NCBI GenBank assembly: GCA_022340305.1
Contig: JAJDOF010000116.1
Location: 1-49,083 of the forward strand
Length of the DNA stretch: 49,083 nt
Origin: Gammaproteobacteria bacterium
Lineage (GTDB): Bacteria > Pseudomonadota > Gammaproteobacteria > GCA-001735895
Direction: 5' to 3'
Part shown: positions 3,643 to 28,100 of the stretch, in pieces
Layout of the letters: every line of letters starts with the position of its first letter
How positions within the stretch are numbered: position 1 is the stretch's first letter
Position numbers and translations under genes: made by a program
Notes under the pieces: generated by a model
The model's input: only the letters and a program-made list of their open reading frames with translations
Told to the model about the DNA's origin: nothing
The model's database searches: none

Positions 3643-4488
3643 ATGATGAAGAAAGGAATCGCCCGCATGGGCATTTTCGGTTTATTCCCCCTGTTTGCCA
3701 GTCCGTGTTTCGCATTTTCCGGCGGCAATTTGCCAAACAGCGAAATCATGTTTGATCCGCGCGCAATAGCGGATACCTGGGATGAATGGCCTGAGCTTTA
3801 CAATCCCGGCATTGAACCGCTGAAGCTGCGCGACACCGTCCCCGGGGACGACGGCAGTAATCGCCAGCGATTCGACAGCGATCTGCTGATTTTACCCGGT
3901 GAGTTCCTGTCGCTGGCGCGCAGCACCGATCCCGGTTTCGTGGCGGATTCTGTCTACGACAATCTCACCTCGGCCAACGCTAACGGCGAGTTAGTCCTGC
4001 GCGATGGATCATCGAACTTGGTGCGCTTTGACTACGGCTCCCGGGTTGGGCAGGCGGGGATCTCAAGCGCACTGCAACAATTATCCATGACAGCGTCGAA
4101 CTATCGCCTGACGCCGGCAACACGTAATTCTGGTACAGGTGATCTCGGCGCTCCCGGGCGGTCACCTGGCGTTCTCCAGGCGCCACCGGCGGTGCCGCTG
4201 CCAGCCGCATCCTGGATGTTTATTAGCGGCCTGCTGGCCGTTTCTACGTCGATGGCTATCAAGTCGATCTCATCAACGCCTCCCGTCATCCCCGCCACTG
4301 TAGTCAACCCCATTAATCCTGTCATCCCCGGTACTCCCGTCAACCCTCTTAACACTGTCATCCCCGGTACTGTCGTCAACCCTCTTAACACTGTCATCCC
4401 CGCGCAAGCGGGGATCTCAAAATGGCCCACATTCCCGACCCCAGGCCCAATATTGTCACTCCGAAAAACCGGGGGCCTGCAATCATGA
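3643..4488 (+). CDS. VPLPA-CTERM protein with lamin-tail-like domain and repeat-encoded C-terminal extension
   Basis: Start ATG at 3643 follows AAGGAG (3633-3638); an in-frame ATG is at 3646. Signal peptide: residues 1 to about 25, ending FAFS. The body resembles a lamin-tail (LTD) fold: EWPELYNPG near the start, LVLRDGSSNLVRFDYG, then the closing GDLGAPGRSPG. Next comes a sorting motif VPLPAASWMF with a hydrophobic helix, which is what exosortase XrtD (encoded at 19447) would recognise. Normal VPLPA-CTERM proteins end a few basic residues later. Here the frame continues about 75 residues through 12-residue repeats (VIPGTVVNPLNT) encoded by REP-derived tandem DNA. The extension probably interferes with sorting. 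Exact substrate role unknown. Confidence 0.75.
   Translation: MMKKGIARMGIFGLFPLFASPCFAFSGGNLPNSEIMFDPRAIADTWDEWPELYNPGIEPLKLRDTVPGDDGSNRQRFDSDLLILPGEFLSLARSTDPGFVADSVYDNLTSANANGELVLRDGSSNLVRFDYGSRVGQAGISSALQQLSMTASNYRLTPATRNSGTGDLGAPGRSPGVLQAPPAVPLPAASWMFISGLLAVSTSMAIKSISSTPPVIPATVVNPINPVIPGTPVNPLNTVIPGTVVNPLNTVIPAQAGISKWPTFPTPGPILSLRKTGGLQS
4285..4417 (+). repeat. REP-anchored tandem array, 36-nt period
   Basis: Three 36-nt units start at 4285, 4321 and 4357, each opening GTCATCCCCG; the fourth (4393) continues as a full REP-like palindrome ATCCCCGC-GCAA-GCGGGGAT (4396-4415). Units 2 and 3 are nearly identical (GTACTCCCG versus GTACTGTCG). The array lies inside the coding frame of the upstream VPLPA-CTERM gene and just before the GIY-YIG gene. 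Confidence 0.9.
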
Positions 4489-4799
4489 GTACCCGTCACT
4501 GCACCTACATCCTCGCCAGCAAGCGTAACGGGGCGCTTTACGTGGGCGTAACCGCAGACCTCGTCAATTGCGTGCTCGACCATAAATGCAACCTGGTCGG
4601 CGGCATGACCCGGCAGTATGCGATCAATCAACTGGTCTATTTTGAATGGCTGCAGGACGCGGCCGCGGCACGGCGCCGCGAACAGGAAATTCGGCAACTG
4701 CACCGCATCTGGAAACTGGACCTGATCGAGCAGCAAAACCCGCATTGGCGCGACCTGTACGCGGATATCTCTTCGTCGAGCTGTTATCCCGCGGCCTGA
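4485..4799 (+). CDS. Small GIY-YIG family nuclease
   Basis: A 104-residue single-domain protein of the GIY-YIG superfamily (UvrC N-terminal-like; YhbQ/UPF0213-type). The two motif strands are CTYILASKRNGALYVGVTADL near the start, where Y-I-L and Y-V-G stand for GIY and YIG. They are followed by the helix with R (MTRQYAINQLVYFEW), then ARRREQEIRQL and the C-terminal NPHWRDLY typical of this subfamily. The expected Arg in the VxRVxxH segment is replaced by cysteine (VNCVLDHK), which may weaken catalysis. ATG 4485 is preferred to the in-frame ATG 4422, which lies in the repeat. Its function is unproven. It sits directly downstream of a REP palindrome at 4396-4415. Confidence 0.85.
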   Translation: MSTRHCTYILASKRNGALYVGVTADLVNCVLDHKCNLVGGMTRQYAINQLVYFEWLQDAAAARRREQEIRQLHRIWKLDLIEQQNPHWRDLYADISSSSCYPAA

Positions 4800-4901
4800 T
4801 TCGAATGGTGTGCATCGACAGGATTTAGCTGCATAAATGTGACCGCTGTCGTTGGGAAAGCAGGCATTTGTGTGCTAGCTTAAGTTGTATATCTTCTATT
4901 A

Positions 4902-5981
4902 TTGGTTTCGTCATTGAAAACTGTCATCGTCACCGGCGGAGCGGGCTTTATCGGCTCCGCCGTCATTCGTGATCTCATCGAGAATCGCGACTATCGAGTC
5001 ATCAACTTCGACAAGTTGACTTATGCCGGTAATCTCGAATCGTTGGCCTCGGTTGCCGATCACCCAAACTATCGTTTCGAGCGTGGTGACATCTGTGACC
5101 ACATAGCGGTTAAAAATCTGTTCATCGAGTACCCACCGGATGCAATCATGCACCTGGCGGCCGAGTCGCACGTCGATCGCTCCATCGACGGACCGGACGA
5201 ATTCATCAACACCAACATCGTCGGCACCAGCGTATTGCTCGAGGCCGCACGCAGTTACTGGAAAGGACTGGAAGACCAGACTGCCTTCCGCTTTCATCAC
5301 GTGTCGACGGACGAGGTATACGGCACCCTGGGTGATAGTGGTTTATTTGATGAGCAAAGCCCGTATCAGCCCAACTCGCCTTACTCGGCCAGTAAGGCAG
5401 CCTCCGATCACCTGGTGCGCGCCTGGCACGAAACCTATGGGCTGCCGGTGGTGATTACCAATTGTTCGAATAACTATGGACCCTGTCAGTTTCCCGAGAA
5501 ATTGATTCCGTTGATCATTCAGAATGCCCTGGCAGGCAAGCCGTTGCCGGTGTACGGCAAGGGTGAGCAGGTACGCGACTGGTTGTACGTCGACGATCAT
5601 GCGCGTGCCCTGTGCCTGGTCATGGAAGAGGGTCGGATGGGTGAAACCTATAATATTGGTGGACACAATGAGATGCAGAATATCGAGGTCGTCAAGACCG
5701 TGTGCCGCCTGCTGGATGAACGCATCGCCGAGCATCCTCCCGGTATTAGCGAATTTTCGGAGTTGATTTGTTTCGTCACCGATCGTCCCGGGCATGACCA
5801 GCGCTACGCAATCGATGCCGGCAAGATACACCAGGACCTCGGCTGGAAACCACGTGAGACCTTTGAAAGCGGCATAGCAAAGACCATCGACTGGTATCTC
5901 GCAAATCAGCAGTGGTGCGATCACGTGCGTGATGGCAGCTACCAGGGTGAGCGCCTCGGCCTCGCGGCTGGAGGGGTCTGA
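4902..5981 (+). CDS. rfbB: dTDP-glucose 4,6-dehydratase
   Basis: Second step of dTDP-L-rhamnose synthesis: converts dTDP-glucose to the 4-keto-6-deoxy sugar using bound NAD. Extended SDR enzyme of 359 residues with N-terminal GGAGFIGS, the [15 protein letters not shown] segment, the STDEVYG motif containing the active-site acid residues, and [15 protein letters not shown] carrying the Tyr-xxx-Lys pair. TTG at 4902 is the first start; TTG 4914 would give MKTVIVTGG and is equally plausible. No Shine-Dalgarno site is evident. First gene of rfbBACD; rfbA begins one base after its stop. Confidence 0.96.
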
Positions 5982-5982
5982 G

Positions 5983-6858
5983 ATGAAAGGTATTATTCTT
6001 GCCGGTGGCTCCGGAACACGCCTGCACCCGATCACCCTGTGTATCTCCAAGCAATTGATCCCGGTTTACGACAAGCCGATGGTGTATTACCCGTTGAGCA
6101 CGCTGATGCTGGCCGGTATTACCGAAATTTTGCTGATTTCGACGCCGCAGGATACGCCGCGTTTCGAACAATTACTCGGCGATGGCAGCCAATGGGGATT
6201 ACGGCTGAGCTATGCGGTACAGCCGAGCCCGGACGGACTGGCGCAGGCTTTCCTGATCGGCGAGGAGTTTATCGATGGCGACGCCTGCGCGCTGGTGCTT
6301 GGCGATAATATATTCTTTGGACACGATCTGGGTGATTCGCTCCAGCAGGGCGCCAGCGACCCTCAGGGCGCGACTGTGTTCGCCTATCCGGTAACCGATC
6401 CAGAACGCTACGGCGTGGTTGAATTCGACGATTCCGGCCGCGCGATCAGCCTCGAGGAAAAGCCCGCGAAACCGAAATCACGCTATGCCGTGACCGGGTT
6501 ATATTTCTACGATTCCAGCATCGTCGAGGTCGCCAAATCGATCAAGCCCTCGGCGCGCGGCGAACTGGAAATTACCGACGTCAACAAGCATTACCTGGAG
6601 CGGGGCAAACTTAAAGTAGTCAACATGGGGCGCGGTACCGCCTGGCTCGATACTGGAACCCACGAATCGTTACTGGAGGCATCGAGCTTCATCGAGACCC
6701 TGGAAAAACGGCAGGGACTGAAAATTTCCTGTCCCGAGGAAATCGCCTGGCGCCTTGGGCTGATTACCCGGGAACAACTGATCGCACTTGCCGAACCCCT
6801 GATAAAAAGCGGTTATGGTGAGTACCTGTTGCAGATCGTCGATGAACGCATATTCTGA
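5983..6858 (+). CDS. rfbA: Glucose-1-phosphate thymidylyltransferase
   Basis: First step of dTDP-rhamnose synthesis: dTTP plus glucose-1-phosphate gives dTDP-glucose. The 291-residue product has the nucleotidyltransferase loop [11 protein letters not shown] at its N-terminus, [17 protein letters not shown], the metal-binding [20 protein letters not shown] and a final [10 protein letters not shown] typical of RmlA. ATG 5983 sits next to the rfbB TGA with a GAGGGG upstream. An in-frame ATG at 5929 would overlap rfbB and is less likely. Confidence 0.97.
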
Positions 6859-6879
6859 ACATTTTGCGCCTCCTGTGAA

Positions 6880-6920
6880 GTCATGCCCGTGCAAGCGGCG
6901 CTCCGACGTATCGGGATCTA
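6880..6920 (+). repeat. REP-like element, type B (nested second palindrome)
   Basis: GTCATGCCCGTGCAAGCGGCG is followed by the inner palindrome TCCGACGTATCGGGA. It matches the copies at 10851, 27937, 35480 and 35786 and the inverted copy at 26168. It lies in the 225-nt gap between rfbA and rfbC. Confidence 0.85.
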
Positions 6921-6989
6921 CCAATAGTGCTACGAATCCGAGACACCCATTCAACAGGGAAGCAATCCGACAATTTGTTCGGGCTGCCT

Positions 6990-7069
6990 CTGCAGCGTCA
7001 TCCCAGCGCAACTCTGCAGCGTCATCCTCGCGAAACTCTGCAGTGTCATCCTCGCGAAAGCGGGGATCT
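6990..7069 (+). repeat. REP-anchored tandem array, 24-nt period
   Basis: Three 24-nt units begin at 6990, 7014 and 7038, each CTGCAGYGTCATCC plus a variable arm. The last unit runs into the closing half CGGGGATCT of the REP palindrome, only 14 nt before the rfbC start codon. The array occupies the place where an rfbC leader and ribosome binding site would be. Confidence 0.9.
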
Positions 7070-7083
7070 ACTAACGGCTTGTT

Positions 7084-7632
7084 ATGAATTTAATCAACAC
7101 GGATATCCCCGACGTCAAGATCATCGAACCCAAAGTGTTCGGTGATGCTCGCGGCTTTTTCTACGAGAGCTTCAACGCCAGGCAATTCCACGATGCGACT
7201 GGCCTCGACAGCGAGTTTGTGCAGGACAATCACTCGAAGTCCGGGCTTGGCGTGCTGCGTGGCCTGCACTACCAGATCGAACAACCACAGGGCAAACTGG
7301 TGCGCGTCGTCAGCGGCTCGGTGTTCGACGTGGCCGTCGATATTCGCCGGTCTTCCGCGACCTTCGGTCGCTGGGTGGGTCAGATCCTGTCAGCTGACAA
7401 TTGTCGGCAGCTGTGGGTTCCGCCCGGTTTCGCTCACGGGTTCGTGGTGCTGGCCGACGAAACCGAGTTCCTTTACAAGACTACCGACTATTATGCGCCT
7501 GAGCATGAACGCTGCATTAGCTGGGATGATCCCGATCTCGCGATCGACTGGCCCAGCGATGGCCTGGACCTGCGTCTATCCGCTAAAGATCAACAGGGCG
7601 TCCCCTTCGCCACAGCCGAGTATTTCTCCTGA
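7084..7632 (+). CDS. rfbC: dTDP-4-dehydrorhamnose 3,5-epimerase
   Basis: Third step of dTDP-rhamnose synthesis, a cupin-fold epimerase of 182 residues (family ~180-185). Recognisable are KVFGDARGFFYESFN, QDNHSKSGLGVLRGLHYQ with the catalytic His, GKLVRVVSGSVFDVAVDIR, WVPPGFAHGF, and YKTTDYYAPEHE with the catalytic Tyr. The ATG at 7084 lacks a clear Shine-Dalgarno site because REP-derived tandem DNA ends 14 nt upstream. The rfbD ATG follows its stop without a gap. Confidence 0.97.
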   Translation: MNLINTDIPDVKIIEPKVFGDARGFFYESFNARQFHDATGLDSEFVQDNHSKSGLGVLRGLHYQIEQPQGKLVRVVSGSVFDVAVDIRRSSATFGRWVGQILSADNCRQLWVPPGFAHGFVVLADETEFLYKTTDYYAPEHERCISWDDPDLAIDWPSDGLDLRLSAKDQQGVPFATAEYFS

Positions 7633-8508
7633 ATGACACATTCAATACTGATAACCGGGGCAGGTGGACAGGTCGCGCACGAACTCGCAATCACCAGCAG
7701 TGAGCATCGGCTCGTCGCCCTGTCGGCAAAGCAGCTGGATATTACCGACCTGCAGCAGATTAACGACGCATTTACCGAATACCGTCCCGACATTGTGATC
7801 AATGCAGCGGCCTACACCCAGGTTGACCGCGCCGAGGAGGAGACCGCAAGCGCATACGCGATCAATCGCGATGCCGTAGCCAACCTCGCACAGGCCTGCA
7901 GCAGCATCGATTGTCCGCTGCTGCACATTTCGACCGACTACGTCTTTGACGGCAACAAACCGGGAGCTTATTGCGAGGATGACGAAATCTCTCCCGCCGG
8001 CGTTTATGGCGCCAGTAAGGCGGCGGGCGATGCTGTGTTGCAATCCCTGCTCGAGCGTCACATCATACTGCGCACCAGCTGGGTGTTTTCGGCGACGGGC
8101 AATAACTTCGTCAAGACCATGTTGCGCCTGGGTGCGGAACGCGATGAACTGGGTATCGTCAATGACCAGCACGGGTGCCCGACTTCGGCCCGGAGCATTG
8201 CAGAAGCACTGCTGCAAATCACTGAACGCTACCTGTGTGGCGATGAGATTGAATGGGGCACGTATCATTTTTGCGGCCGACCCGAAACCACCTGGTACGG
8301 GTTTGCAAAACAGATATTTAAGCAGGCAAACGGTTTCGAAAACCTCAGGCTGAAAGAAATACCCACCAGCGAGTATCCAACCCCCGCGACCAGGCCACTG
8401 AACTCGGTGCTCGATTGCTCGAAAATCATCGCACAGTTTAAAACGCTACAGCCCGACTGGAGAGATGATTTAGATAATATACTGGAGCAGTTAGGCTACT
8501 TGTCTTAG
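7633..8508 (+). CDS. rfbD: dTDP-4-dehydrorhamnose reductase
   Basis: Last step of dTDP-L-rhamnose synthesis: NAD(P)H-dependent reduction of the 4-keto group. SDR fold, 291 residues, with GAGGQVAHEL (nucleotide binding), INAAAYTQVDRAEEE, STDYVFDG, and YGASKAAGD carrying the catalytic Tyr-xxx-Lys. ILRTSWVFSATGNNFVKTML and the substrate-loop DQHGCPTSARSIAEAL also match RfbD. It abuts rfbC (TGA-ATG), indicating translational coupling, and ends the rfb block. Confidence 0.97.
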   Translation: MTHSILITGAGGQVAHELAITSSEHRLVALSAKQLDITDLQQINDAFTEYRPDIVINAAAYTQVDRAEEETASAYAINRDAVANLAQACSSIDCPLLHISTDYVFDGNKPGAYCEDDEISPAGVYGASKAAGDAVLQSLLERHIILRTSWVFSATGNNFVKTMLRLGAERDELGIVNDQHGCPTSARSIAEALLQITERYLCGDEIEWGTYHFCGRPETTWYGFAKQIFKQANGFENLRLKEIPTSEYPTPATRPLNSVLDCSKIIAQFKTLQPDWRDDLDNILEQLGYLS

Positions 8509-8670
8509 TTGTTGAAACTGGTCCGGGCGATCCTGAGAATAGCAACGACTTGGCGTCGATCCGGGCTGTGGGGATATCGTCAACCTGGGACGAATTTCAG
8601 CGCACGGGCGCCGATATGATTCATACACCATTGGATCCTGTACTAACCCCTTCGGGGCTGGCGAGCAATT

Positions 8671-9246
8671 ATGTTTGAAGCCTATGGTTGGCATCCGGGA
8701 ATTGGAGACCCGTCGATCATGGGATGGGTCACCGTCGCTGCCTATTTCCTGACCTCGCTGCTCGCTTTAGGGATTGCTTTGAATTCCGGACGACGCTTTC
8801 CTGCCGACACCTGGCCGACGCAACGGCGTTTCTGGCTGATCGTATGCCTGCTGCTGCTGGCCCTTGGTATAAATAAGCAATTGGACCTGCAGTCCCTGGT
8901 TACTGCAATGGGCAGGTATTACGCCGTGCGCGACGGCTGGCTCGAATACAAGCGATATGTCCAGGTCGGCGTGATCATTTCAATTCTGGCCGTGGTTGCG
9001 CTAAGCCTGCTATTTTTCTTTTTTCGAATGAGGGACCTGTTACGGACCAATTGGTTGGCGTTTGCCGGTTTAACCTGTCTGCTGGTTTTCATCGTGTCCC
9101 GGGCGACATCGTTTCACCACATGGATATTTTCATTAATGCCTGGTTTTTAGGTGCCAGGGCGAACTGGCTGCTGGAACTCGGTGGATTGGCGGCGATAGC
9201 ACTGTCCGCGATTACGCCTGGTAAAAGCGAAATTGTAGAAAGCTGA
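8671..9246 (+). CDS. Multi-pass inner-membrane protein of unknown function
   Basis: A 191-residue hydrophobic protein with five predicted membrane helices at about residues 17-38, 54-70, 97-118, 126-144 and 165-184. I do not recognise the family. Conserved-looking polar positions are GINKQLDLQSLVTAMGR after helix 2 and SRATSFHHMD after helix 4, which might line a periplasmic site. It lies alone between rfbD (162 nt upstream) and the convergent wcaJ-like gene, so a role in envelope polysaccharide is only positional inference. No signal peptide or sorting tail is visible. Confidence 0.7.
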   Translation: MFEAYGWHPGIGDPSIMGWVTVAAYFLTSLLALGIALNSGRRFPADTWPTQRRFWLIVCLLLLALGINKQLDLQSLVTAMGRYYAVRDGWLEYKRYVQVGVIISILAVVALSLLFFFFRMRDLLRTNWLAFAGLTCLLVFIVSRATSFHHMDIFINAWFLGARANWLLELGGLAAIALSAITPGKSEIVES

Positions 9247-9352
9247 ATGGACGGGTAGCCGTTACTCGATGTGCACCGAAAGGTGAGGTTGGCATGAGCT
9301 CGCCGCACAATTGTCTGCAGATGACCACTTCAGGGATTTTCTGACCAGTAGT

Positions 9353-9382
9353 CCTGACATCTCAGGGCCGTGTTGACACGGC
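9353..9382 (-). terminator. Paired hairpins at the 3' end of the wcaJ-like gene
   Basis: Immediately after the minus-strand stop codon lie two adjoining inverted repeats: GCCGTG-TCAA-CACGGC (9367-9382) and CCTGA-GATG-TCAGG (9353-9366). There is no U-tract, so this is either a weak or Rho-assisted terminator or a transcript-stabilising end between convergent genes. Confidence 0.4.
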
Positions 9383-10804
9383 TCAGTAAGCTTCGTTTCT
9401 CAGCAGCGCTGGAATCGTCTTGATCAGTATTTTGATGTCCAGCCAGAAAGACCAGTTGTTGATGTATTGCATGTCGTATTCGACACGCTTCTTCATCTTG
9501 TCGAGCGTATCCGTTTCCCCGCGGTAGCCGTTGATCTGAGCAAGCCCGGTGATGCCAGGCTTGATGCGGTGGCGCGTCATGTAGGAATTGATGCGCTTGT
9601 CGTAATCGGAATTGTGCTGGACGGCGTGCGGGCGCGGGCCGACCATCGACATAGTGCCGCTCAGTACGTTAAACAGCTGTGGCAACTCATCGATACTGGT
9701 CTTGCGGATGAAGCGGCCGATGCGTGTCACGCGATCATCATCGCGCGTGGCTTGCTTGAGGTCGTCAGACTGTGGTTGATGGACTTTCATGCTGCGGAAT
9801 TTCCAGATAGGAAATTCACGACCATTCCACCCGGTGCGGCCCTGGCGAAAGATCACCGGTCCGGGCGAATCGAGCTTGATCAGAATCGCGATAATGATCA
9901 TGAGTGGACTTAACAAGATCAATGCAATCAGGCCGATCACACGATCCTCGACGGCCTTGAACATGAGGTGATTGCCGATCAGTGGCGACTCGGACAGGGT
10001 CAGCAGGGGCAGGCCGGCTATTTCCTTGACGCTGTGATTTATCAGGTTCATCGAGAAGATATTCGGCACCCAGTGGATGTCGATATTTTCATTGGCAAGA
10101 TCGAGATAGAGTTGTTCCACCAACTGCGAATTGTCCAGTGAAACTGCAATGTATACCGTGCGCACGTTATTCTCGCGCACCACGTTGATGATGTCGTCAC
10201 GCGATCCGAGCACGGGCACCGGCATGTCATCGTCATCGGTTTCGTTACAGGTGCGAATCCGCCCGATTGCCTTTTCCTGCAGCCAGGGATTGCCGTTGAT
10301 ATTGTCGTAAAGATGTTTCACCAGCGGGCCGCCGCCGATCAACAGCACTTTGTTGCGATCTTCATTGGAATGGGCGGTTTGCACGCGCAGGGTAACCAGG
10401 ATCAGGCGATTCGCCAGCTGGCCGGCAAAGGCGATGAAGAACATCGCCATCAACACCGGGCGCGAGAACTGGTCGAAATATTTCGCCATGATGAAGATAA
10501 AGAGGGTAATTGCGAAGCTGATCGCCCAGGCAAAAAACAGCTTGCGCGTCGAGCGAATCAGGCCTCCGAACTGGCGGTAAATGCCCATTTGATCGTAAGT
10601 AACACCCATGATGGCCAGCAGCGTGATGGTGAAAACGGCATCGATGGTGGTGAAAAAACCCTGCGCGTTGAAAAACGCGTAATACACGGTGAGCAGGACG
10701 ATCAGTCCATCGACCAGTGCCTGAAAGGTGGTCGTCAGCGACTTGCGCCGCTGCAGCAATGACCTTTGCGTCTGAAGGCCTCCCGGTGGCATTACAGCAG
10801 CCAT
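9383..10804 (-). CDS. Undecaprenyl-phosphate glucose phosphotransferase (WcaJ-type)
   Basis: Initiates repeat-unit assembly by moving a hexose-1-phosphate (probably glucose) from a UDP-sugar to undecaprenyl phosphate at the inner membrane. The 473-residue product has four N-terminal helices (about 27-130), a Rossmann-like CoA-binding-type domain ([17 protein letters not shown]) and a C-terminal bacterial sugar transferase domain after a helix near 290. That domain contains the motifs [42 protein letters not shown] and [16 protein letters not shown]. Start ATG 10804; ATG 10792 is an alternative. It shares the minus strand with the LuxR-type gene 177 nt upstream, with a REP copy between them. 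Confidence 0.93.
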
Positions 10805-10850
10805 CCCGAACAGCCCCCGGAAAAGAAGTTACTCGTCATGTTGCTACCCT

Positions 10851-10893
10851 TATTCCCGTGCAAGCGGTGGTCCGACGTATCGGAATCTTTCAG
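10851..10893 (+). repeat. REP-like element, type B
   Basis: TATTCCCGTGCAAGCGGTGG is followed by the inner palindrome TCCGACGTATCGGAATC and TTTCAGCG. Same composite as at 27937 and 35480. It lies between the wcaJ-like gene and the regulator gene. Confidence 0.85.
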
Positions 10894-10981
10894 CGTCCCA
10901 CCATCGGTGAAGAAACTGAAATCCACTACGCAAAACCGTTCGAATCCAGATCTCTCAGATGAAATCAATATGGACATGGGA

Positions 10982-13387: not shown

Positions 13388-13410
13388 GCAGTCGTTTCAT
13401 GTTGAATAAA

Positions 13411-13436
13411 AGAGGGCTTTAGAGCCCTCTTTTTTT
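13411..13436 (+). terminator. Rho-independent terminator after the VPLPA-CTERM gene
   Basis: Perfect 8-bp stem AGAGGGCT (13411-13418), loop TTAG, AGCCCTCT (13423-13430), followed by a run of six further T (13431-13436). It separates the VPLPA-CTERM gene from the export operon, so the two are separate transcripts. Confidence 0.93.
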
Positions 13437-13559
13437 ATGTGCGCAATAAAAATGAAAGTACATTATTTTCTCTCGATGCCTGGACGATCTGGCGATACCG
13501 GGTTAGTTAAAGGGACGAGAAATCGACAGGAAAGCCGGAAGGATTTGTGAGCCCGACAT

Positions 13560-17118: not shown

Positions 17119-17121
17119 GCT

Positions 17122-18845: not shown

Positions 18846-18852
18846 TTCCGGG

Positions 18853-18874
18853 AGCGCTTGATACAGGCGCTTTT
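18853..18874 (+). terminator. Weak Rho-independent terminator after the ATPase gene
   Basis: AGCGC (18853-18857) and GCGCT (18867-18871) with a 9-nt loop, followed by TTT. Short stem and short T-run, so termination is likely partial. Confidence 0.35.
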
Positions 18875-19446: not shown

Positions 19447-21018
19447 ATGGGACGACATATCATAATCTGGAAATTTTCATACCCTGTACTGGCATTGATT
19501 GCCGGGGGATTCCTGCTGTTGTTACCGACGTTCTGGGGCGGGATCGCCGATTTGACAGGGCGCTGGGATAGCCAGGAGGAATATAGCCATGGCTACATGA
19601 TTCCCCTGGTATCGGCCTATTTAATCTGGCAACGAAAGGATTTATTGCAAACCCTCCAGTTCAGGCCATCATGGGTTCCAATCGGCCTTGTGCTTCTGGG
19701 GCTAGCGGTTTCGGTTCTCGGCGAAATCAGCGCCCTCTACATTCTGATTCATTTCTCCCTGATCCTGATTATCCTGGCGATGGCCTGGTCAATCATGGGA
19801 TGGAATGCGTTCAAGTACGTGTTGATTCCCCTGGGACTGCTTGTCTTCGCAATTCCCCTGCCTTATTTCCTCGAGGCCTCGTTAACTGCGGATCTGCAAC
19901 TGATCTCATCCAAACTCGGGGTTGGTTTTATACGCCTGTTTGGTATCTCGGTGTTTGCCGAGGGCAATGTAATCGATCTCGGTAGCTATCAACTTCAGGT
20001 AGTCGAGGCCTGCAGTGGCTTGCGCTACCTGTATCCGCTGATGGGTGTCGGCTTTATCGCTGCCTATCTCTACCAGGTTGAATTCTGGAAACGTGCACTC
20101 GTTTTCTTCTCGACGATCCCGCTAACCATCCTGATGAACAGCTTGCGCATCGGTGTCATCGGTATCCTGGTGGAACACTGGGGTATAGGAATGGCGGAAG
20201 GTTTTCTGCATTATTTCGAGGGCTGGATTATTTTCATCGCCTGCCTCGCAATCCTGGTCGGAGAAATGTGGTTACTCAATCGATTTTCTGCGAACCGGCT
20301 CAGTTTCGCGCAATCGTTTACCATGCCTGCGGGTCCGGATATCAGTGCCGAGGAAGTAGAACCGCGGACAAGGGAATTGCCCCGGCCATTTATCGCCTGC
20401 ATGGCCCTGGTAATTCTATCCTATTTCGTTATTCAGTCGATCGATACCCGTAACGAGGTCATTCCAGATCGTGATGATTTCGTGACATTCCCGCTCTATT
20501 TCGATGGCTGGTCCGGGCAACAGGAAAATCTCCAGTCGATTGTGACTGATAAGTTGAAGCTCACCGATTACCTTATGAACAATTATGCTCGAGATGAAAA
20601 ACCGCCGATCAACTTTTATGTCGCTTATTATGCATCCCAGCGCAAGGGAATATCACCACATTCGCCGCGAGTTTGTGTCCCGGGTGGAGGATGGTCGATT
20701 ACCGATATCGAACGCACGATTATTAATCTCAATAATGACGGCGGGCAGGTCAAGGTCAATCGGGCGATAATCCAGAATGGTGTAAATAAACAACTGGTGT
20801 ATTACTGGTTCAAGCAGCGCGGTCGCGACATTGCTAACGAATACTGGATGAAATGGTACCTGTTGACGGATTCGATATCGTTGAATCGCACCGACGGCTC
20901 CCTGGTTCGGCTAACCACCCCCATTCTCCCCAATGAAAAAGAGCGTGATGCAGAACTGCGATTGAAGGAGTTTTTGTCTACCGTTAATCCAATGCTGGAA
21001 GACTATGTTCCAATCTGA
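19447..21018 (+). CDS. xrtD: Exosortase XrtD (VPLPA-CTERM type) fused to an EpsI domain
   Basis: Integral-membrane cysteine transpeptidase-like enzyme that cleaves C-terminal sorting signals. Residues 1-290 form the exosortase core with about eight membrane helices and the expected triad: Cys in VVEACSGLRYLYP, Arg in ILMNSLRIGVIG, and His in GFLHYFEGW. Residues ~320-523 form a periplasmic EpsI-type domain with FPLYFDGWSGQ, the NFYVAYYASQRKG strand and the HSPRVCVPGGGW motif. A single fused polypeptide is what VPLPA-CTERM-specific exosortases (XrtD) have, and two proteins with that signal are encoded at 3643 and 12743. It is followed by the PrsT-like gene. Start ATG 19447, weak ribosome binding site. 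Confidence 0.92.
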   Translation: MGRHIIIWKFSYPVLALIAGGFLLLLPTFWGGIADLTGRWDSQEEYSHGYMIPLVSAYLIWQRKDLLQTLQFRPSWVPIGLVLLGLAVSVLGEISALYILIHFSLILIILAMAWSIMGWNAFKYVLIPLGLLVFAIPLPYFLEASLTADLQLISSKLGVGFIRLFGISVFAEGNVIDLGSYQLQVVEACSGLRYLYPLMGVGFIAAYLYQVEFWKRALVFFSTIPLTILMNSLRIGVIGILVEHWGIGMAEGFLHYFEGWIIFIACLAILVGEMWLLNRFSANRLSFAQSFTMPAGPDISAEEVEPRTRELPRPFIACMALVILSYFVIQSIDTRNEVIPDRDDFVTFPLYFDGWSGQQENLQSIVTDKLKLTDYLMNNYARDEKPPINFYVAYYASQRKGISPHSPRVCVPGGGWSITDIERTIINLNNDGGQVKVNRAIIQNGVNKQLVYYWFKQRGRDIANEYWMKWYLLTDSISLNRTDGSLVRLTTPILPNEKERDAELRLKEFLSTVNPMLEDYVPI

Positions 21019-21068
21019 TCGCTATGGTTACCCGACGCACACTTCTAATTAATTTTGAGAACGTCACC

Positions 21069-23459
21069 ATGTATAGAAAAATGATGAAACCTGTAATTAT
21101 TATCCTTCTGATCAGCGGTCTGGCCGCCTGTAGTAGTCCGGAGGAGAAGGCGGCGGACTACATTCAGAATGCAACCGCGTTGTTGCAGGAAGGCAACCTG
21201 GATAAGGCCGAGCTCGAGTATAAGAACGCCCTGCAAATCAACCAGAATCAGCCCGACGCCTGGTATGGCCTGGCAAAAATTTATGAGCGCAAGCAGCAGT
21301 GGCGCCAGATATATGCAACGTTGCAGAGAATCCGGGAAATGGCGCCTGATCACGTCGATGGCAGAATCATGCTGGCGCAGCTTTTGCTGGCCTCCAATCA
21401 ACTGGAGCAGGCTCTGAAGGATGCCGGTGAAATTTTGGAACTCGCACCCGCTGATGCGCGCGCGCATGCGCTAATGGCCGCCGTGCAATTCCGGCTCGAT
21501 AATTTCGCGGGTGCCCAGGATGAAGTCGACCGGGCACTGGCCATAGACCCCGGACATATCGAGGCTGTACTGGTGCGGTCACGCATACTCATAGTGGAGG
21601 AAAAGTATGACGATGCAATCCGCCTGCTGGATGGTTCCATAAAAGATAATCCGGACAACGTTTCTTTGTATTTGATGAAAATAAAGGCTTACGCGGAAAC
21701 GGGTAACAGCAAGGATACTGAGCAGACTTATCTCAGTTTGATCAAGCAAAATCCTGATAAAAATGCCTTCAAGCAGGCCCTTGTAAGCCACTATATCAGT
21801 CAGAAAGACATTGACGGCGCCGAAGCGGTAATCGAGCAGCTTATTCAGTCTGACCCGGACAGCGTCGACCTGAAACGGCAGTTGATTGGTTTCAAAAACC
21901 AGTATCGCTCGACCGCCGAAGCGATTGCCCTGGTAAAGTCTTATATTGATTCAGACGGGGACGAGTACCGCTACCGATTTATGCTGGCGGAATTGTATGA
22001 GCGCAACAAGCAAAGTGAACTGGCTTTAAAAGTCTACGAGGAGATTGCGGTTGACGATGGGTTCCAGCCCAATGGACTGGAAGCGCGCATTAAAACTGCG
22101 GTCATCGAATTGATCGCGGGCAACGAGGAGCGGGCCAGGGCTCTGGTGAATGAAGTCCTGGAGCAGGATAAAAACAATGAGAACGGTCTGCTGTTACTGT
22201 CAGGTTTTCAAATCACGGACCGTAAATATGACGATGCACTGGTCAGCGCGCGAACCGTGTTGCGCGATAACCCGGATTCCATTAAGGCACTGGGCCTGCT
22301 GGGGAAAGCTTACAGCGCCATGGGCTCAACTGAGCTCGCGGTAGAGTCATATACCAAGGCCTTTCAGCTCAACAAGGGTACGCCCATCATTGCGAATGAA
22401 CTCGCAACCAGTTTCATTCAGCAGCGAAAATTCACCCAGGCGGATGAAGTGTTGCAGGAATCGATCGCCCAGGGCAATCAAAGTCTGGATGCAATCAAGT
22501 TGTTAACCCAGGTTAAGCTGGCATTGGGTGAATGGGATGTGGCGGAAAAATTGGCCCGGCAATTGCAGAAGGTCGAAGGTCAGGAAGCATTATCAGAACA
22601 ATTACTGGGTGTGGCTTACCAGGGAAAGGATTTGCAGGGCGAGAGTATCAAGGCGTTTCAGCGGGCGCATGACCTCGCTCCATCGGCCGTGCAACCGATC
22701 GTGTCCATCGCTCAGGCCTACTTTCGCTCGGGGGAACTCGAAAAAGCACGGCAGTTTCTGGATTCGGTTTTAGCTGCGGATAAAGAAAACATTACCGCCT
22801 ACCTGTTACTTGGGCAGTTGAGCCAGGCTGAGGGTAAGCAGGCGGAAGCCGTTGCACATTTTAACAAGGTCATTGAAATTGACCCGAAACAGGGCGTTGG
22901 TTATCGCAACCTGGCTATTGTATACCGGCGCAGTAACGAACTGGAAAAGGAAGAAGAAACGATAAATCGTGCCGTTGCGGCTATGCCGGAGCGCCCTATT
23001 TTAACCATGGGCCAGGCTTCGATATATGAACGTCAGGGAAATTTCGACAAGGCGATTGAGACCTATGAGGCACTGTTAAAAACCGACTCCAACCTGCTGG
23101 TGGCGAAAAATAACCTGGCAAGCCTGCTGACTGATCACCGGCAGGATCAGGCGAGTATTGATAAGGCGCGGAGTATAGCGGCTGAACTCAGGAGCTCTTC
23201 GATTCCGCAGTTCCGTGACACCTATGCCTGGGTATCGGTTAAATCCGGAACAAATCTCGAGGAGGCGGTAGTAATTCTTGAAGGCATTGTAAAAGAAAAT
23301 GATCAGGTCGATGTATACCAGTATCACCTGGGCGAGGCTTATCGTAAGAAGGGTGATTCCGAAAAAGCGATGCTGCACCTGAATAAGGCCGTTAAGCTGG
23401 CCAATCCGGAATCCGACGTCGCTGAAAAAGCAAAAGAGTCGCTTCAGCAGTTGAAGTAA
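21069..23459 (+). CDS. PrsT-like TPR lipoprotein of the exosortase system
   Basis: Large TPR scaffold found in PEP-CTERM/exosortase loci. The chosen start ATG 21069 gives a 796-residue product whose N-terminus is a lipoprotein signal with lipobox LAAC (MYRKMMKPVIIILLISGLAA then Cys); the ATG at 21024 adds 15 residues with no ribosome binding site. From about residue 35 to the end there are more than 15 TPR-like 34-residue units, for example ALLQEGNLDKAELEYKNALQ, AYRKKGDSEKAMLHLNKAV. Role in assembly of the polysaccharide or sorted proteins is unproven. Follows xrtD by 50 nt and precedes galE by 21 nt. Confidence 0.9.
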   Translation: MYRKMMKPVIIILLISGLAACSSPEEKAADYIQNATALLQEGNLDKAELEYKNALQINQNQPDAWYGLAKIYERKQQWRQIYATLQRIREMAPDHVDGRIMLAQLLLASNQLEQALKDAGEILELAPADARAHALMAAVQFRLDNFAGAQDEVDRALAIDPGHIEAVLVRSRILIVEEKYDDAIRLLDGSIKDNPDNVSLYLMKIKAYAETGNSKDTEQTYLSLIKQNPDKNAFKQALVSHYISQKDIDGAEAVIEQLIQSDPDSVDLKRQLIGFKNQYRSTAEAIALVKSYIDSDGDEYRYRFMLAELYERNKQSELALKVYEEIAVDDGFQPNGLEARIKTAVIELIAGNEERARALVNEVLEQDKNNENGLLLLSGFQITDRKYDDALVSARTVLRDNPDSIKALGLLGKAYSAMGSTELAVESYTKAFQLNKGTPIIANELATSFIQQRKFTQADEVLQESIAQGNQSLDAIKLLTQVKLALGEWDVAEKLARQLQKVEGQEALSEQLLGVAYQGKDLQGESIKAFQRAHDLAPSAVQPIVSIAQAYFRSGELEKARQFLDSVLAADKENITAYLLLGQLSQAEGKQAEAVAHFNKVIEIDPKQGVGYRNLAIVYRRSNELEKEEETINRAVAAMPERPILTMGQASIYERQGNFDKAIETYEALLKTDSNLLVAKNNLASLLTDHRQDQASIDKARSIAAELRSSSIPQFRDTYAWVSVKSGTNLEEAVVILEGIVKENDQVDVYQYHLGEAYRKKGDSEKAMLHLNKAVKLANPESDVAEKAKESLQQLK

Positions 23460-23480
23460 CGGCAAGTAGCGGGGGAGCCT

Positions 23481-24461
23481 TTGTTGAATATTCTGATTGT
23501 GGGTGGTGCGGGTTATATTGGCTCGCACATGGTTAAACTTCTGTCGGTTGCGGGTCATCAGGTCGTGGTCTTTGATAATCTCTCCAAGGGTTATCGGGAC
23601 GCGGTTCTCGAGGGTGAATTTATCGAGGGTGATCTGGCTAATCTCGAGCAGCTCGAGCGCTTGTTTAGCTCCAGTCGCTTTGATGCGGTGATGCATTTTG
23701 CCTCATTTATCGAGGTTGGCGAATCCGTAAGGGATCCGGCGAAGTACTACCGAAACAATTTCTCGAATACCCAGAATCTTCTCGATAGCATGGTGGCCCA
23801 TGACGTCGGTCATTTTATCTTTTCGTCGACGGCTGCTATTTTCGGTGAGCCGCGATATACCCCGATCGATGAAGTGCATGCAAAATCACCGATCAATCCC
23901 TATGGCAGATCAAAATTCATGGTTGAGCAAATGCTCGAGGATTACGATAAAGCCCATGGATTGAAGTCTGTATGTTTGCGTTATTTCAATGCGGCAGGCG
24001 CCGATGTCGAGGGTGATCTCGGTGAACGCCATAACCCCGAAACCCATCTTATCCCTCTCGTCTTGCAGGCTGCGTCAGGCCGCAGAGACGCTATCGCGAT
24101 TTATGGAAACGACTACGATACTGCCGATGGCACCTGTGTTCGAGATTATATCCACGTTCAGGATCTCTGCGCTGCACATTTGCTCGCGCTGGATTCTTTG
24201 CGGAAGACCGGTAACAGCAATCAATTCAACCTGGGAAATGGGCTGGGATTCTCGGTTCGACAGGTGATCGATTGCGCGCGCGAGGTGACCGGCCGGGAAA
24301 TAAAGGTGGTGAACGAAGAACGCCGGGCAGGCGATCCGGCCGTGCTGGTGGCCGACGCTGCCAGGGCCAAAACGGTTCTTGGCTGGAAGCCTTCCTTATC
24401 GAGCCTGGAAAAAATTATCGAAACCGCCTGGAACTGGGAGCAGTCATTTTTTTCACATTAG
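23481..24461 (+). CDS. galE: UDP-glucose 4-epimerase
   Basis: Interconverts UDP-glucose and UDP-galactose for the polysaccharide. SDR enzyme of 326 residues with NAD-binding GGAGYIGSHM, FDNLSKGYRDAV, HFASFIEVGESV, SSTAAIFGEP, NPYGRSKFMVEQML carrying Tyr-xxx-Lys, and YFNAAGADVEGDLGE. The start is TTG 23481 with GGGGGAG at 23471-23477. In the operon with xrtD and the TPR gene. Specificity for N-acetylated sugars cannot be excluded. Confidence 0.95.
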   Translation: MLNILIVGGAGYIGSHMVKLLSVAGHQVVVFDNLSKGYRDAVLEGEFIEGDLANLEQLERLFSSSRFDAVMHFASFIEVGESVRDPAKYYRNNFSNTQNLLDSMVAHDVGHFIFSSTAAIFGEPRYTPIDEVHAKSPINPYGRSKFMVEQMLEDYDKAHGLKSVCLRYFNAAGADVEGDLGERHNPETHLIPLVLQAASGRRDAIAIYGNDYDTADGTCVRDYIHVQDLCAAHLLALDSLRKTGNSNQFNLGNGLGFSVRQVIDCAREVTGREIKVVNEERRAGDPAVLVADAARAKTVLGWKPSLSSLEKIIETAWNWEQSFFSH

Positions 24462-24518
24462 TGTAAGATCCACGTCTGCGATATTACGAATCACTTCAAT
24501 TTCCAGGGCACCTGAATC

Positions 24519-25853
24519 ATGAATATAACTATCTTTGGCTCGGGCTATGTCGGCCTGGTCACCGGGGCCTGTCTGGCCGAGGTCGGCAATCATGTCGTCT
24601 GTATGGATGTCGATCGAGATAAGATCGATCGGTTGAATAACGGCGAAATCCCGATTTATGAACCGGGTCTTGAAGAATTGATCCAGCATGCCCGCGACCA
24701 GGGTAACATCGAGTTCACGACCGACCTCGAAAAAGCCGTCGGGCACGGTGTGTTCCAGATGATCGCCGTCGGCACACCGCCGGATGAAGACGGGTCGGCT
24801 GACATGCAATACGTGTTGGCGGTAGCGGAGTCTATCGGTCAGCATATGAACGACTACAAGATTATTATCGATAAGTCGACGGTGCCGGTGGGCACTGCAG
24901 AGATGGTGCGCGCCAAGGTCAACGAGTTGCTGGGAAAGCGCAACAAGTCGCTAGAGTTTGATGTGGTCTCGAACCCTGAATTCCTGAAAGAGGGTGCCGC
25001 GATCGATGATTTCATGAAACCGGATCGTATTGTGATCGGCACCGATAATCCGCGTACCACCGAGCTCCTGCGGGTGCTCTATACGCCGTTCAATCGTAAC
25101 CATGACCGCATCATTGCGATGGACATTCCCTCGGCGGAGCTGACCAAGTATGCCGCGAATGCGATGCTCGCGACCAAGATCAGCTTTATGAACGAGATGG
25201 CCAATATTGCGGAACGCGTTGGCGCGGATATCGAGCACGTGCGCCAGGGGATAGGCTCGGATCACCGTATCGGGTTCCAGTTTATTTATCCCGGTTGTGG
25301 TTATGGTGGTTCCTGCTTCCCGAAGGACGTGCAGGCCCTGAGCCGAACGGCTACCTCGATCGGATACGACGCCAAGGTTCTGAATGCCGTCGAGGCAACG
25401 AACGAGCTGCAGAAAGAAAAGCTGTTTGGGAAAATCAGCAAGTTCTATAACGGCGACCTCGCGGGCAAGGTTATCGCGCTGTGGGGCCTCTCGTTCAAGC
25501 CGCGTACCGACGATATGCGTGCGGCGCCGAGCCGCAATTTACTGGAACGCCTGATCGCCGAAGGCGCGAGCGTGCGTGCCTTCGATCCGGTCGCCATGGA
25601 TGAAGCCCGGCACATTTACGGTGACACCCAGGGACTCGAATTCTGCGACAGCGCCGAAGAGGCCGTGCAGGGTGCAGACGTGCTGGCCATCGTGACTGAG
25701 TGGAAGAATTTCTGGGGTCCGGATTTCGCCAATCTTGCCGAAAAACTCGCCGACAAGGCGATATTCGATGGCCGCAATCTTTACGATCCGGCCGTCGTCA
25801 AACCGTTCGGGCTGCGCTATTTCGCAATCGGGCGCGGCGAGCAGCTGAATTGA
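24519..25853 (+). CDS. ugd: UDP-glucose 6-dehydrogenase (active-site intact)
   Basis: Oxidises UDP-glucose to UDP-glucuronate with two NAD. The 444-residue product has N-terminal [18 protein letters not shown], the [15 protein letters not shown] segment, [24 protein letters not shown] and [20 protein letters not shown] with catalytic Lys and Asn. It also has [16 protein letters not shown] with the nucleophilic Cys, then the C-terminal domain [14 protein letters not shown] and DGRNLYDP. It ends the polysaccharide locus. A diverged paralogue lies at 35884-37152 on the opposite strand. Confidence 0.96.
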
Positions 25854-26347
25854 TCAGAAGCCGATTCTTTTCGAAAATTTGATAAAACCGAGCCGGTTGG
25901 TGCCACCATTGTGGGGCTGGCGAATTCGACCGCTGCGCAATCTTCGCCATCGGCACAGGTCAGCATCGCTCGCGTTACTCGCGGCTCGGCGAAAGCAAGG
26001 TGTCGGTGATCGAGTTTATCGTCATATTCAGTAGATTTTTCGCATGAGTCGCTAAATATTGAAACCGATCGAAAGACGTTTCACCGAAACGGGATAAAAT
26101 TTTGATTTATCAATGGTCATTCAAATGGATAAGGATCCGCGCAATCGCTCAACGCACAACCATTGCATGATTCCGACACGTCAGGCCGCCGCTGGTGCGG
26201 GAATGACAGGTAAGTAGCGCAGTGAACGGCCGTGAGTGGTGAAAGTTTTATTTATTTGACCTGGTCGGCTTTATTTTTGTGAATTTGTGGTCAAATAGCA
26301 GATTGAACTCTAATATAATTCAGTAACATAGAAAGTTAAGTTATCAA
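25854..26347. other. Intergenic region between ugd and gspE
   Basis: About 490 bases with no intact gene. It holds an inverted type B REP copy at 26168-26208. A possible gspE promoter -10 TATAAT lies at 26314-26319, without a good -35. The stretch 25890-26040 reads like coding DNA for short runs but has no start and no recognisable product. Confidence 0.5.
26168..26208 (-). repeat. REP-like element, type B, inverted copy
   Basis: GATTCCGACACGTCAGGCC, then GCCGCTGGTGCGGGAATGAC, is the reverse complement of the composite at 27937 and 35786, including the inner TCCGACGTGTCGGA palindrome (one mismatch). It is the only clear inverse copy of type B in the window. Confidence 0.8.
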
Positions 26348-27823
26348 ATGTCCTCAACTAGTGATCTACCATATTCCTTTTGCAAACGTTACGGCGTTAT
26401 TGCGGCCCAGTCGCCGGTTAGCGGCAAGCTGCGGTTAACGCTCAAAAACGGTGCGCCCGCCGATGCGGTAACCGAGGCTCAGCGCGTACTCGGGATGGTC
26501 GACGAGATCGAATTCGAGTCCGATATCGAGTTTAACCGCATGTTGAGCCAGCATTTCGAGAGTAATCGAGAAACCTCGTTTAACGAGGCCGAGAAAATTG
26601 GAGGTGAACTCAATCTCGACGATGTCGCACGCGAACTTTCGGAGCCCGAGGATTTGCTCGAGAGCGACGACGATGCCCCCATCATTCGCCTGATCAACGC
26701 GCTCATCACCGAGGCGATCAAGGAGAACGCGTCGGATATACACGTCGAGCCCTTCGAATCGCGCCTGTCGATCCGTTTCCGTGTCGATGGTGTGTTGCGT
26801 GAGGTGCTGGAGCCGCCGCGTCAGATCGCAAGCTTGCTCACCTCACGCATCAAGGTCATGGCGCAGCTCGATATCGCCGAAAAGCGACTGCCGCAAGACG
26901 GTCGTATTGCGCTCAAGGTCGCCAATCGCCCGGTTGACATTCGCGTATCCACACTGCCTTCGGGTCATGGTGAGCGGGTGGTTATGCGCCTGCTCGACAA
27001 GCAGGCTGGACGTCTCGACCTGAAGCAACTGGGGATGGATGCAGAAGAAGATAAACGCCTCGAGGCGATGATTCAGAAGCCGTACGGCATCGTTCTGGTG
27101 ACCGGTCCTACCGGCTCCGGTAAAACCACGTCCCTCTACGCGATGCTGTCGGTGTTGAACGATACCAAGCGTAATATTCTGACAGTCGAAGATCCGGTCG
27201 AGTACGACCTCGACGGCATTGGCCAAACGCCGGTCAATACCAAGGTCGATATGACTTTCGCCAAGGGTTTGCGCGCGATTCTGCGACAGGATCCGGACGT
27301 GGTGATGGTAGGTGAGATTCGTGATGGAGAGACCGCGCAGATTGCGGTGCAGGCGAGCCTGACAGGGCACCTGGTGTTGTCAACTTTACATACTAACTCG
27401 GCGGTCGGCGCGATTACACGCCTGCAGGACATGGGGGTCGAGCCGTTTCTGCTGTCATCGACGCTACTGGGTGTCATTTCGCAGCGCCTGGTGCGCAAGC
27501 TGTGCCCGCATTGCAAGACGGTCACCCATCTTGGCGTCGAGGAGATCAACGGCATTGCGATCACACCCGAAGATGAAATCTACAAGGCGAATGGCTGCAG
27601 TGAATGTTTGCAGACCGGGTTTCGCGGGCGTACCGGCATATATGAGATCATCGAGGTCGACGAGACACTGGCGTCGATGATCCACGATGGTGCCAGCCAG
27701 CCCAAGCTCGAAAAATATTGCCGTACGCGCAGCAAGAGTTTGCGCGACGATGGAGTCCGCAAGGTGTTGGAGGGCGAAACCACGCTCGATGAAGTATTGC
27801 GGGTGTCGCGCGATGGGGGGTAG
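26348..27823 (+). CDS. gspE: Type II secretion ATPase GspE
   Basis: Cytoplasmic hexameric ATPase that powers pseudopilus assembly. The 491-residue product has the N1/N2 region, Walker A GPTGSGKTTSLYA, the Asp box VEDPVEYDLDGIGQTPVN, Walker B EIRDGETAQIAVQAS with the LSTLHTN motif, and a C-terminal tetracysteine zinc module CPHC...CSEC. ATG 26348 follows a leader with TATAAT at 26314. It starts the second T2SS cluster; gspC and gspD are at 668-3504 and are not adjacent. Confidence 0.97.
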   Translation: MSSTSDLPYSFCKRYGVIAAQSPVSGKLRLTLKNGAPADAVTEAQRVLGMVDEIEFESDIEFNRMLSQHFESNRETSFNEAEKIGGELNLDDVARELSEPEDLLESDDDAPIIRLINALITEAIKENASDIHVEPFESRLSIRFRVDGVLREVLEPPRQIASLLTSRIKVMAQLDIAEKRLPQDGRIALKVANRPVDIRVSTLPSGHGERVVMRLLDKQAGRLDLKQLGMDAEEDKRLEAMIQKPYGIVLVTGPTGSGKTTSLYAMLSVLNDTKRNILTVEDPVEYDLDGIGQTPVNTKVDMTFAKGLRAILRQDPDVVMVGEIRDGETAQIAVQASLTGHLVLSTLHTNSAVGAITRLQDMGVEPFLLSSTLLGVISQRLVRKLCPHCKTVTHLGVEEINGIAITPEDEIYKANGCSECLQTGFRGRTGIYEIIEVDETLASMIHDGASQPKLEKYCRTRSKSLRDDGVRKVLEGETTLDEVLRVSRDGG

Positions 27824-27897
27824 TCATCATCATCCCCATGTGTCGGACCACGGCCCAAACCTGAATCTCTGGTCAATTCACCGCCCGGGGCTCCCAA

Positions 27898-28100
27898 GTC
27901 ATTCCCGCGCAAGCGGGAATCTCCCGGGGCCGCTAAGTCATTCCCGCGCAAGCGGCGGTCCGACCTGTCGGAGTCTTTCAATGGTGGCCCGTTGCAAGAT
28001 CCCCGCTTACGCGGGGATGACGATAAGCCTGCATGGGAATTTCTTCAGAGCGGGGATGACGATAAGCCGGCATGCGAATTCCTCCAGCGCGGGGATGACC
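27898..28100 (+). repeat. REP cluster between gspE and gspF, with 39-nt tandem array
   Basis: Several related elements occur here. A simple palindrome GTCATTCCCGCGCAAGCGGGAAT lies at about 27899-27920. A type B composite with TCCGACCTGTCGGA lies at 27937-27980. An inverted simple copy AGATCCCCGCTTACGCGGGGATGAC lies at 27996-28021. A tandem array with a GCGGGGATGAC core at 28011, 28050 and 28089 gives a period of exactly 39 nt. The cluster fills the 322-nt gap between gspE and gspF. Confidence 0.9.

Follow-up and report, generated by a model that had tools for sequence, protein, structure and literature searches.

The stretch of DNA analysed here, hereafter the window (49,083 nt; G000:C133:1-49083), belongs to G000, a 4.35-Mb draft genome in 169 contigs of a Gammaproteobacteria bacterium, and carries copies of a repetitive extragenic palindrome (REP) beside which short tandem arrays are stacked, together with a gene for a putative small GIY-YIG nuclease. 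The arrays form a strongly one-sided system on REPs of the CGTC type: most units comprise only the left half of the palindrome (the GTC tag and the left arm) and a mostly locus-specific spacer, and they are stacked on the tag side, or head side, of the REP. The arrays, the palindromes and the gene are located as follows.

4285-4392, plus strand: head-side array of three 36-nt units upstream of a full palindrome, each unit an 18-nt GTCATCCCCG.. / GTCAACCC.. doublet (Tandem Repeats Finder, TRF; repeat inspection).
4393-4416, plus strand: full REP palindrome GTCATCCCCGCGCAAGCGGGGATC, with tag GTC, 8-bp stem and 4-nt loop (pattern scan; single-stranded DNA fold).
4422-4799, plus strand: open reading frame (ORF) for a predicted small GIY-YIG nuclease of 125 residues, directly after the REP, with Cys in the usual active-site Arg column (Pfam PF01541, 1.2e-9; alignment).
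6997-7044, plus strand: head-side half-REP array of two 24-nt units (repeat inspection).
7045-7068, plus strand: full REP palindrome with one stem change, GTCATCCTCGCGAAAGCGGGGATC (pattern scan).
28022-28099, minus strand: two 39-nt half-REP units on the head side of the REP at 27998-28021 (repeat inspection).
35418-35468, minus strand: two tandem REPs with a period of 27 nt, the outer copy (GTCGT start) lacking the ATC end (repeat inspection).

The original prediction listed five REP-anchored arrays in the window. Four of these are present, each abutting a GTCATYCCCGC-NNNN-GCGGGRATC palindrome: 4285/4321/4357/4393 (36-nt units; TRF score 173), 6997/7021/7045 (24 nt; 102), 28011/28050/28089 (39 nt; 143) and 35424/35451 (27 nt; 107), with palindromes at 4393-4416 and 7045-7068 and, on the minus strand, at 27998-28021 and 35418-35441. 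In the array at 6997-7044, the flank preceding the first unit (CTCTGCAGC) equals the end of the first spacer. The fifth, 31426/31447, has no palindrome, is not listed by TRF and was rejected as a REP array; an ATG at position 31451 lies within its second GGGGATGAC, in the frame of the ORF 31322-32053 (T2SSJ and N_methyl profile matches), the context reading MTLQRGSRGFTLFEM, and the pair is likely the start-codon context of gspJ. The word GTCATCCC occurs 13 times in the window, with 2.05 expected and 0 of 100 shuffles reaching 13; one pair of it, at 39608/39656, lies inside the ORF 38794-39684 (minus strand).

Over 149 near-full sites in the loci of G000, the consensus of the repeat is GTCATYCCCGCGCAAGCGGGRATCTTGCA. 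The G, T and C of the tag are each present in 97-99% of these sites, a conservation that is partly built in, since sites were chosen for resembling the consensus over the 24-nt core. At the position before GTC, which played no part in that choice, C occurs 49 times, T 47, A 39 and G 14 (none above 42%); because neither the bases before GTC nor the weak TTGCA tail entered the selection, the sharp 5′ edge of the repeat is real. The core ATYCCCGC / NNNN loop / GCGGGRAT has 152 matches in the genome at no more than one mismatch, and the reversed pattern has none.

CGTC-1 REPs, to which dRS3 of Neisseria belongs (Di Nocera et al. 2013, PMC3733652), are described in the available text of that survey as having an unpaired CGTC (often TGTC) tag at one end, an 8-bp stem starting with AT, a 4-nt loop and an unpaired 3-nt tail that is mostly CCA, with head-to-head (HH) dimers predominant and head-to-tail (HT) dimers negligible. 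The present repeats share the unpaired GTC tag, the 8-bp stem with AT at its first two positions and the 4-nt loop (both backed by the fold), and inverted dimers with the tags outside. Their tail departs from the CCA of CGTC-1: positions 23-26 have the consensus C, T, T, G, giving CTT(G). Among 58 close REP pairs (within 160 nt, at REP-selected loci), HH is the commonest arrangement (24) but not dominant, HT being frequent (19) and tail-to-tail accounting for 15, proportions that seem to differ from those of the survey. Hairpins beside the GIY-YIG genes of several relatives do end in ATCCA. Judged by these features, the repeats appear to be CGTC-type REPs that largely fit CGTC-1.

The side on which the half arms lie was compared over 76 genomes, using head- and tail-side patterns matched for information content and gap range. 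There are 284 head-side pairs of half arms and 1 pair of the tail-side mirror, with reversed-pattern controls giving 0 for both; as the matches are pairs, an array of n units counts n-1 times. All 284 fall in 21 of the 31 genomes from the window's genus and none in the 45 genomes outside it, with the most in G029 (78), G017 (44), G003 (35) and G000 (26). At loci fetched for their REPs, a left half arm lies upstream of 18 of 106 hairpins and a right half arm downstream of 2 of 106 (p 4e-4), a count that covers the window and 67 loci and excludes those already obtained by pair searches, which works against the bias. Near the GIY-YIG genes of relatives, the left-upstream and right-downstream numbers are 6 and 1 of 28 hairpins with a CCCGC stem, and 2 and 0 of 13 with a CCGCGG stem; rows of the CCGGC family were left unused because they overlap with CCCGC at the mismatch limit applied, and rows for relatives that include loci fetched by anchor pairs (CCCGC 50 vs 1 of 123; CCGCGG 6 vs 1 of 22) are not relied on. 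Over all loci examined, arms outside any palindrome number 31 of 152 for left arms and 14 of 117 for right arms, and none of the 14 right arms forms a tail-side array. On the 1.9-Mb contig C1 of G029, a hand tally gives 11 distinct arrays on the plus strand and 10 on the minus strand.

Since the stem is symmetric, a factor recognising nothing but the stem would be unable to tell the sides apart, so that the tag or the tail must matter; something that reads the tag is implied. Because the stem is symmetric and the arrays occur in both orientations, plain slippage and fork direction explain the bias poorly, and fork direction is an unlikely cause of it. No description of one-sided half-REP arrays was found in the literature searched, including searches aimed at the arrays or their sequence, and the words 'half' and 'truncated' are absent from the available text of PMC3733652, which notes that REPs or dimers of GTAG families can be found repeated in tandem together with adjoining DNA segments.

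In the genome of the window, GTCATYCC forms 44 pairs 5-35 nt apart and 19 pairs 36-66 nt apart (nested pairs of one array being counted separately), and the reversed pattern none. Exact anchors followed by a second one at most 69 nt away number 47, of which 34 belong to half arms and 13 to near-full palindromes. The break in these half arms falls mostly at the arm end or loop: the match to the REP extends for 8-9 nt in 6, 10-11 nt in 18 and 13-14 nt in 10 (10-14 nt in 28), and among 39 lone half arms for only 8-9 nt in 26, a range partly set by definition, as an anchor needs 8 nt and a break far into the right arm counts as near-full (for example the 29-nt array on contig C39, which keeps GTCATCCCCGCGCAAGCG). 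Where an array contains one or more half units, it terminates in a palindrome (at most 4 mismatches) in 22 of 25 cases in G000, 17 of 17 in G017, 9 of 11 in G021 and 10 of 22 in G029; one of the three G000 exceptions is the coding pair at 39608. The G029 exceptions are mostly REPs interrupted at the loop or right arm by a few recurring long sequences (GCACTGCTGTCCGGAATAAATT.., AGGCTGTGTAAAAACCCG..; loci L216, L220, L224, L225, L227, L230 and L232), which have the appearance of insertion-sequence ends directed at the REP.

That the anchor is fixed and the spacers are unrelated, as noticed in the window, is borne out genome-wide and in much of the genus; spacer similarity is 0.68 within arrays in G000, 0.64 in G029 and 0.96 in G017, and 0.05-0.10 between arrays. 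The exception is G021, with 0.55 within arrays (2 comparisons) and 0.36 between them; there, spacers of different arrays (L255-L268) share CTACTACTCC-like sequence, unlike those of the other three genomes examined. Array count tracks REP count over the 31 genomes of the genus (Spearman 0.92), and the largest arrays hold up to nine extra units. For the relatives, arrays were taken from 60 stretches retrieved because they contain anchor pairs or REPs, and those of G029 lie on one contig.

The sequence outside an array bears on how it began. Sharing between this flank and the first spacer exceeded that of shuffled pairs in 4 of 4 genomes (means 1.88, 2.76, 1.89 and 2.33 vs 0.61, 0.70, 0.83 and 1.59), and in the G000 arrays the score is 3.54 vs 0.55 shuffled. 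Scores of at least 5 were obtained in 10 of 35 G000 arrays and, in the four-genome run, in 7 of 41, 6 of 21, 2 of 18 and 2 of 12. Some arrays are thus plain duplications of flank and half arm, and in the others either the outer flank has decayed or the half arm was placed without flank. In arrays of at least four units, mismatches in the outer and the palindrome-proximal unit are 0.60 vs 0.10 in G029 (10 arrays), 0.11 vs 0.11 in G017 (9) and 0.50 vs 0.33 in G000 (6), a pattern that fits growth next to the palindrome only in part.

The flank-spacer identity found in a minority of arrays is the expected trace of plain replication slippage, in which REPs stall synthesis, short tandem duplications form without a dedicated enzyme and ordinary minisatellite expansion follows. 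Units within an array are also often identical, as the spacer similarity in G017 illustrates, and expansion after two copies needs nothing more. As the founding step, however, slippage at a symmetric stem should give arrays on both sides; the 284-to-1 split and the presence of arrays in both orientations weigh against this, and we regard this account as rather unlikely.

The part common to all units, the asymmetric tag and arm, is what would be expected if half sites were selected, the tag and left arm binding a protein (in regulation, DNA uptake or the nucleoid) and extra sites being kept. The period also differs between genomes (medians of periods up to 30 nt are 21, 19, 20 and 22 nt in four genomes; Kruskal-Wallis p 1e-5) and is near two helical turns. 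Such selection nevertheless seems to us quite improbable, given arrays at many loci, unrelated spacers and outer copies that are degenerate in some genomes.

The half units could also be the remains of tandem full REPs with their right arms deleted, or of repeated REP insertions beside older ones. Full-unit arrays of 36-45 nt period exist, 19 of the 58 close REP pairs are direct, and insertion near one spot recurs, as is seen between gspE and gspF. This gap holds hairpin elements in G000 (322 nt), G005, G021 and G023, with different hairpins in different species, and lacks them in G016 (29 nt) and G018 (37 nt, to the first aligned base); four of ten loci, in reverse orientation (L292, L293, L295 and L298), were left out of the comparison. 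Because the gap holds them in some genomes and not in others, hairpin elements come and go. Yet the half units are often identical within an array whose last REP is whole, which fits copying of half units better than independent deletions, and right-arm remnants beside REPs are rare (2 of 106; 1 tail-side pair), so that the probability of this origin is likewise low.

That a codon-like constraint or mechanism yields periods divisible by three, as all four real window arrays comply with, is hardly credible: the genome-wide test set out with the original prediction gave multiples of three in 11 of 31 arrays of G000 outside the window (p 0.47; 15 of 35 with the window, p 0.15), and with 21 of 61 in four relatives the pooled figure for five genomes is 32 of 92 (p 0.83; array definitions differ slightly, being anchor GTCATYC within 60 nt plus palindrome in G000 and GTCATYCC within 48 nt in relatives), which refutes the claim; the multiple-of-three spacing is chance.

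Relatives of the window's GIY-YIG protein occur in 42 of the 76 genomes at E <= 1e-3, and, among records carrying a name, a relative of the gene was seen in one, from an uncultured Gammaproteobacteria bacterium; the protein has no NCBIfam match, and a PDB sequence search gave nothing useful (best E 0.43). An outward tagged hairpin lies within 400 nt of the small GIY-YIG gene at 20 of 32 places, the window's included, and on both sides at 12. The 32 derive from 41 places, 9 having been excluded (E of 1e-12 or more, or less than 300 nt of room on a side), and two of them are pieces of one broken gene (L158), giving 19 of 31 if merged. At control loci, which are unmatched for genome (5 Y1, the C159 locus and 8 gspF of relatives), 2 of 14 have such a hairpin within 800 nt of the centre. 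Two other GIY-YIG genes are present in G000, a long one (C135) and a small one (C159), the latter with no REP palindrome in the 3 kb examined around it. The stems near GIY-YIG genes are of several kinds (CCCGC, CCGCGG, CCGGC, TGCGG), and half-arm arrays also accompany CCGCGG-type stems (L165, L180). Presence of the gene is associated with REP number (one-sided p 0.026). At L161 and L080, 189-nt tandem repeats carrying tagged hairpins lie beside a GIY-YIG gene. The small nuclease is the leading but unproven candidate for a tag-reading enzyme, a lead rather than a result.

Among 31 aligned relatives, the active-site column whose arginine we take to be the GIY-YIG catalytic residue holds Arg in 24 and lacks it in 7 (hand count). 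This subgroup of 7, which includes the window's protein and the relatives at L279, L280, L281 and L282, has Cys, Thr or Ser in the column, and a non-Arg copy adjoins a canonical or broken copy in G004, G012, G013 and G020; non-Arg and canonical neighbours are perhaps active/inactive pairs.

The Ssn family comprises site-specific single-strand GIY-YIG nucleases with the NTS repeat in Neisseria. The arrangement here is similar in pairing a putative small GIY-YIG nuclease with a GTCATTCCCGC-type hairpin repeat as its presumed cognate, and is unlike Ssn in that the window copy does not have an intact GIY-YIG active site (Cys for Arg); to our knowledge, one-sided half-repeat arrays have not been described for Ssn/NTS. 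Neisserial intergenic mosaic elements, which are repeats flanked by dRS3, are likewise mosaics of palindromes and other repeats between genes, and we know of no half-arm arrays in them. The REPIN/RAYT system shares miniature inverted hairpin pairs dispersed through the genome and a nuclease gene beside the same hairpins, whereas its tag is GTAG rather than GTC and its adjoining gene encodes a Y1 HUH transposase rather than a GIY-YIG protein. No full REP of the present kind lies in the ~1.5 kb examined on each side of the five Y1 (RAYT-type) genes in the genome, and one of these loci has a lone GTCATTCC; RAYT is accordingly not supported as the driver.

Further REP features of the window include a 39-nt direct palindrome pair (27898/27937) and an inverted pair, both absent from the original prediction, and a longer duplication.

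27898-27921, plus strand: full REP (ATTCCCGC variant), first member of the direct pair (pattern scan).
27937-28021, no strand assigned: 85-nt inverted REP pair with tags outside (HH dimer, REPIN-like; fold, sequence matches).
35448-36051, no strand assigned: 306-nt tandem duplication with its left edge inside a REP, taking in the 3′ end of a UDP-glucose/GDP-mannose dehydrogenase ORF (35884-37152, minus strand; TRF, profile match).
35750-35773, minus strand: full REP in copy 2 of the 306-nt duplication (pattern scan).

As single-stranded DNA the inverted pair folds end to end (z -6.4), and ~86 nt of it match many sites across the genome and genus. The second member of the direct pair is a composite form; REPs of this form, which enclose a GGTCCGACGTATCGG-like palindrome, include the one at 27937-27975 of the window and recur elsewhere in the genome and in relatives. 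An Rfam scan of the window gave two tRNAs and nothing else. In G067, three copies of a 344-378-nt element (L275, L276, L277), 99.1-99.5% identical, lie in unrelated flanks. Imperfect inverted hairpins, whose ends read GTCGT, CTCAT or GTCGT-like sequence, enclose a short frame in the element that aligns with residues 55-118 of the window's GIY-YIG protein; the strict tagged-hairpin scan of GIY-YIG places did not count these hairpins.

We propose, at a confidence a little short of even, that a tag-reading process stacks copies of the 5′ half (GTC and left arm, to about the loop) with short other sequence on the tag side of the REP, the small GIY-YIG nuclease being the likeliest cutter. The REP would fold in single-stranded DNA, and a nuclease recognising the GTC-tagged hairpin, most likely the small GIY-YIG enzyme found beside such hairpins, would cut at or near the loop. 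The 3′ end bearing the left arm would then re-prime a few bases upstream, the flank and left arm being copied again, and once two half arms exist, slippage between them would expand the array. The data directly show the anchor, the side bias, units that break mostly at the arm end or loop, mostly private spacers, the lack of a period-of-three rule and GIY-YIG genes near tagged hairpins; the cut, the re-priming and the choice of enzyme are what we infer. The original prediction had supposed repeated duplication next to a REP end, by nicking at the palindrome followed by slipped repair; repeated duplication fits, and is more one-sided than was noted, nicking and slipped repair remain our best guess and would account for it, and the period of three fails, so that the prediction survives in part. 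A broader version would have the GIY-YIG nuclease read the tag and cut REP hairpins in single-stranded DNA, with repair then adding half units, ratchet-like, to the tag side alone, so that each REP writes its private minisatellite; the same enzyme would mobilise inverted hairpin pairs and so be the missing 'transposase' of CGTC REPs. This version strikes us as unlikely.

Several observations weigh against assigning the process to this enzyme or to simple copying of the flank. By the scan used, 12 of the 32 GIY-YIG places lack a tagged hairpin. In G029, the genome richest in half-arm pairs (78), no window-type GIY-YIG relative was found (its assembly is 87% complete), and none was detected in G015, G021, G028, G007, G008 and G026, which also have pairs; presence of the gene is associated only weakly with arrays (p 0.063). 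The window copy, the only relative of its kind found in G000, itself carries Cys where the active-site Arg is usual. No covariation is seen between stem and protein distances (Mantel r 0.09, p 0.18, n 19; at 11 of 19 the closest protein has a stem differing by at most 1 nt, 5.9 being expected), and coupled stem-protein evolution was set aside as not significant. With 25 of 35 arrays at a flank-spacer score under 5, simple flank duplication is insufficient unless the older flanks have since decayed.

REP palindromes are common in bacteria, and for the CGTC kind the 2013 survey, in its available text, found no dedicated transposase or enzyme and asks whether these REPs still form (PMC3733652). 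The repeat described here is of this known kind, and its one-sided half-arm arrays are what we did not find described in the literature searched. The 284-to-1 bias at a symmetric stem implies that the tag is read, and the GIY-YIG genes beside such hairpins provide a concrete candidate. If the proposed process is correct, it would provide a case, in bacteria, of minisatellites that arise in a single direction from a defined break site.

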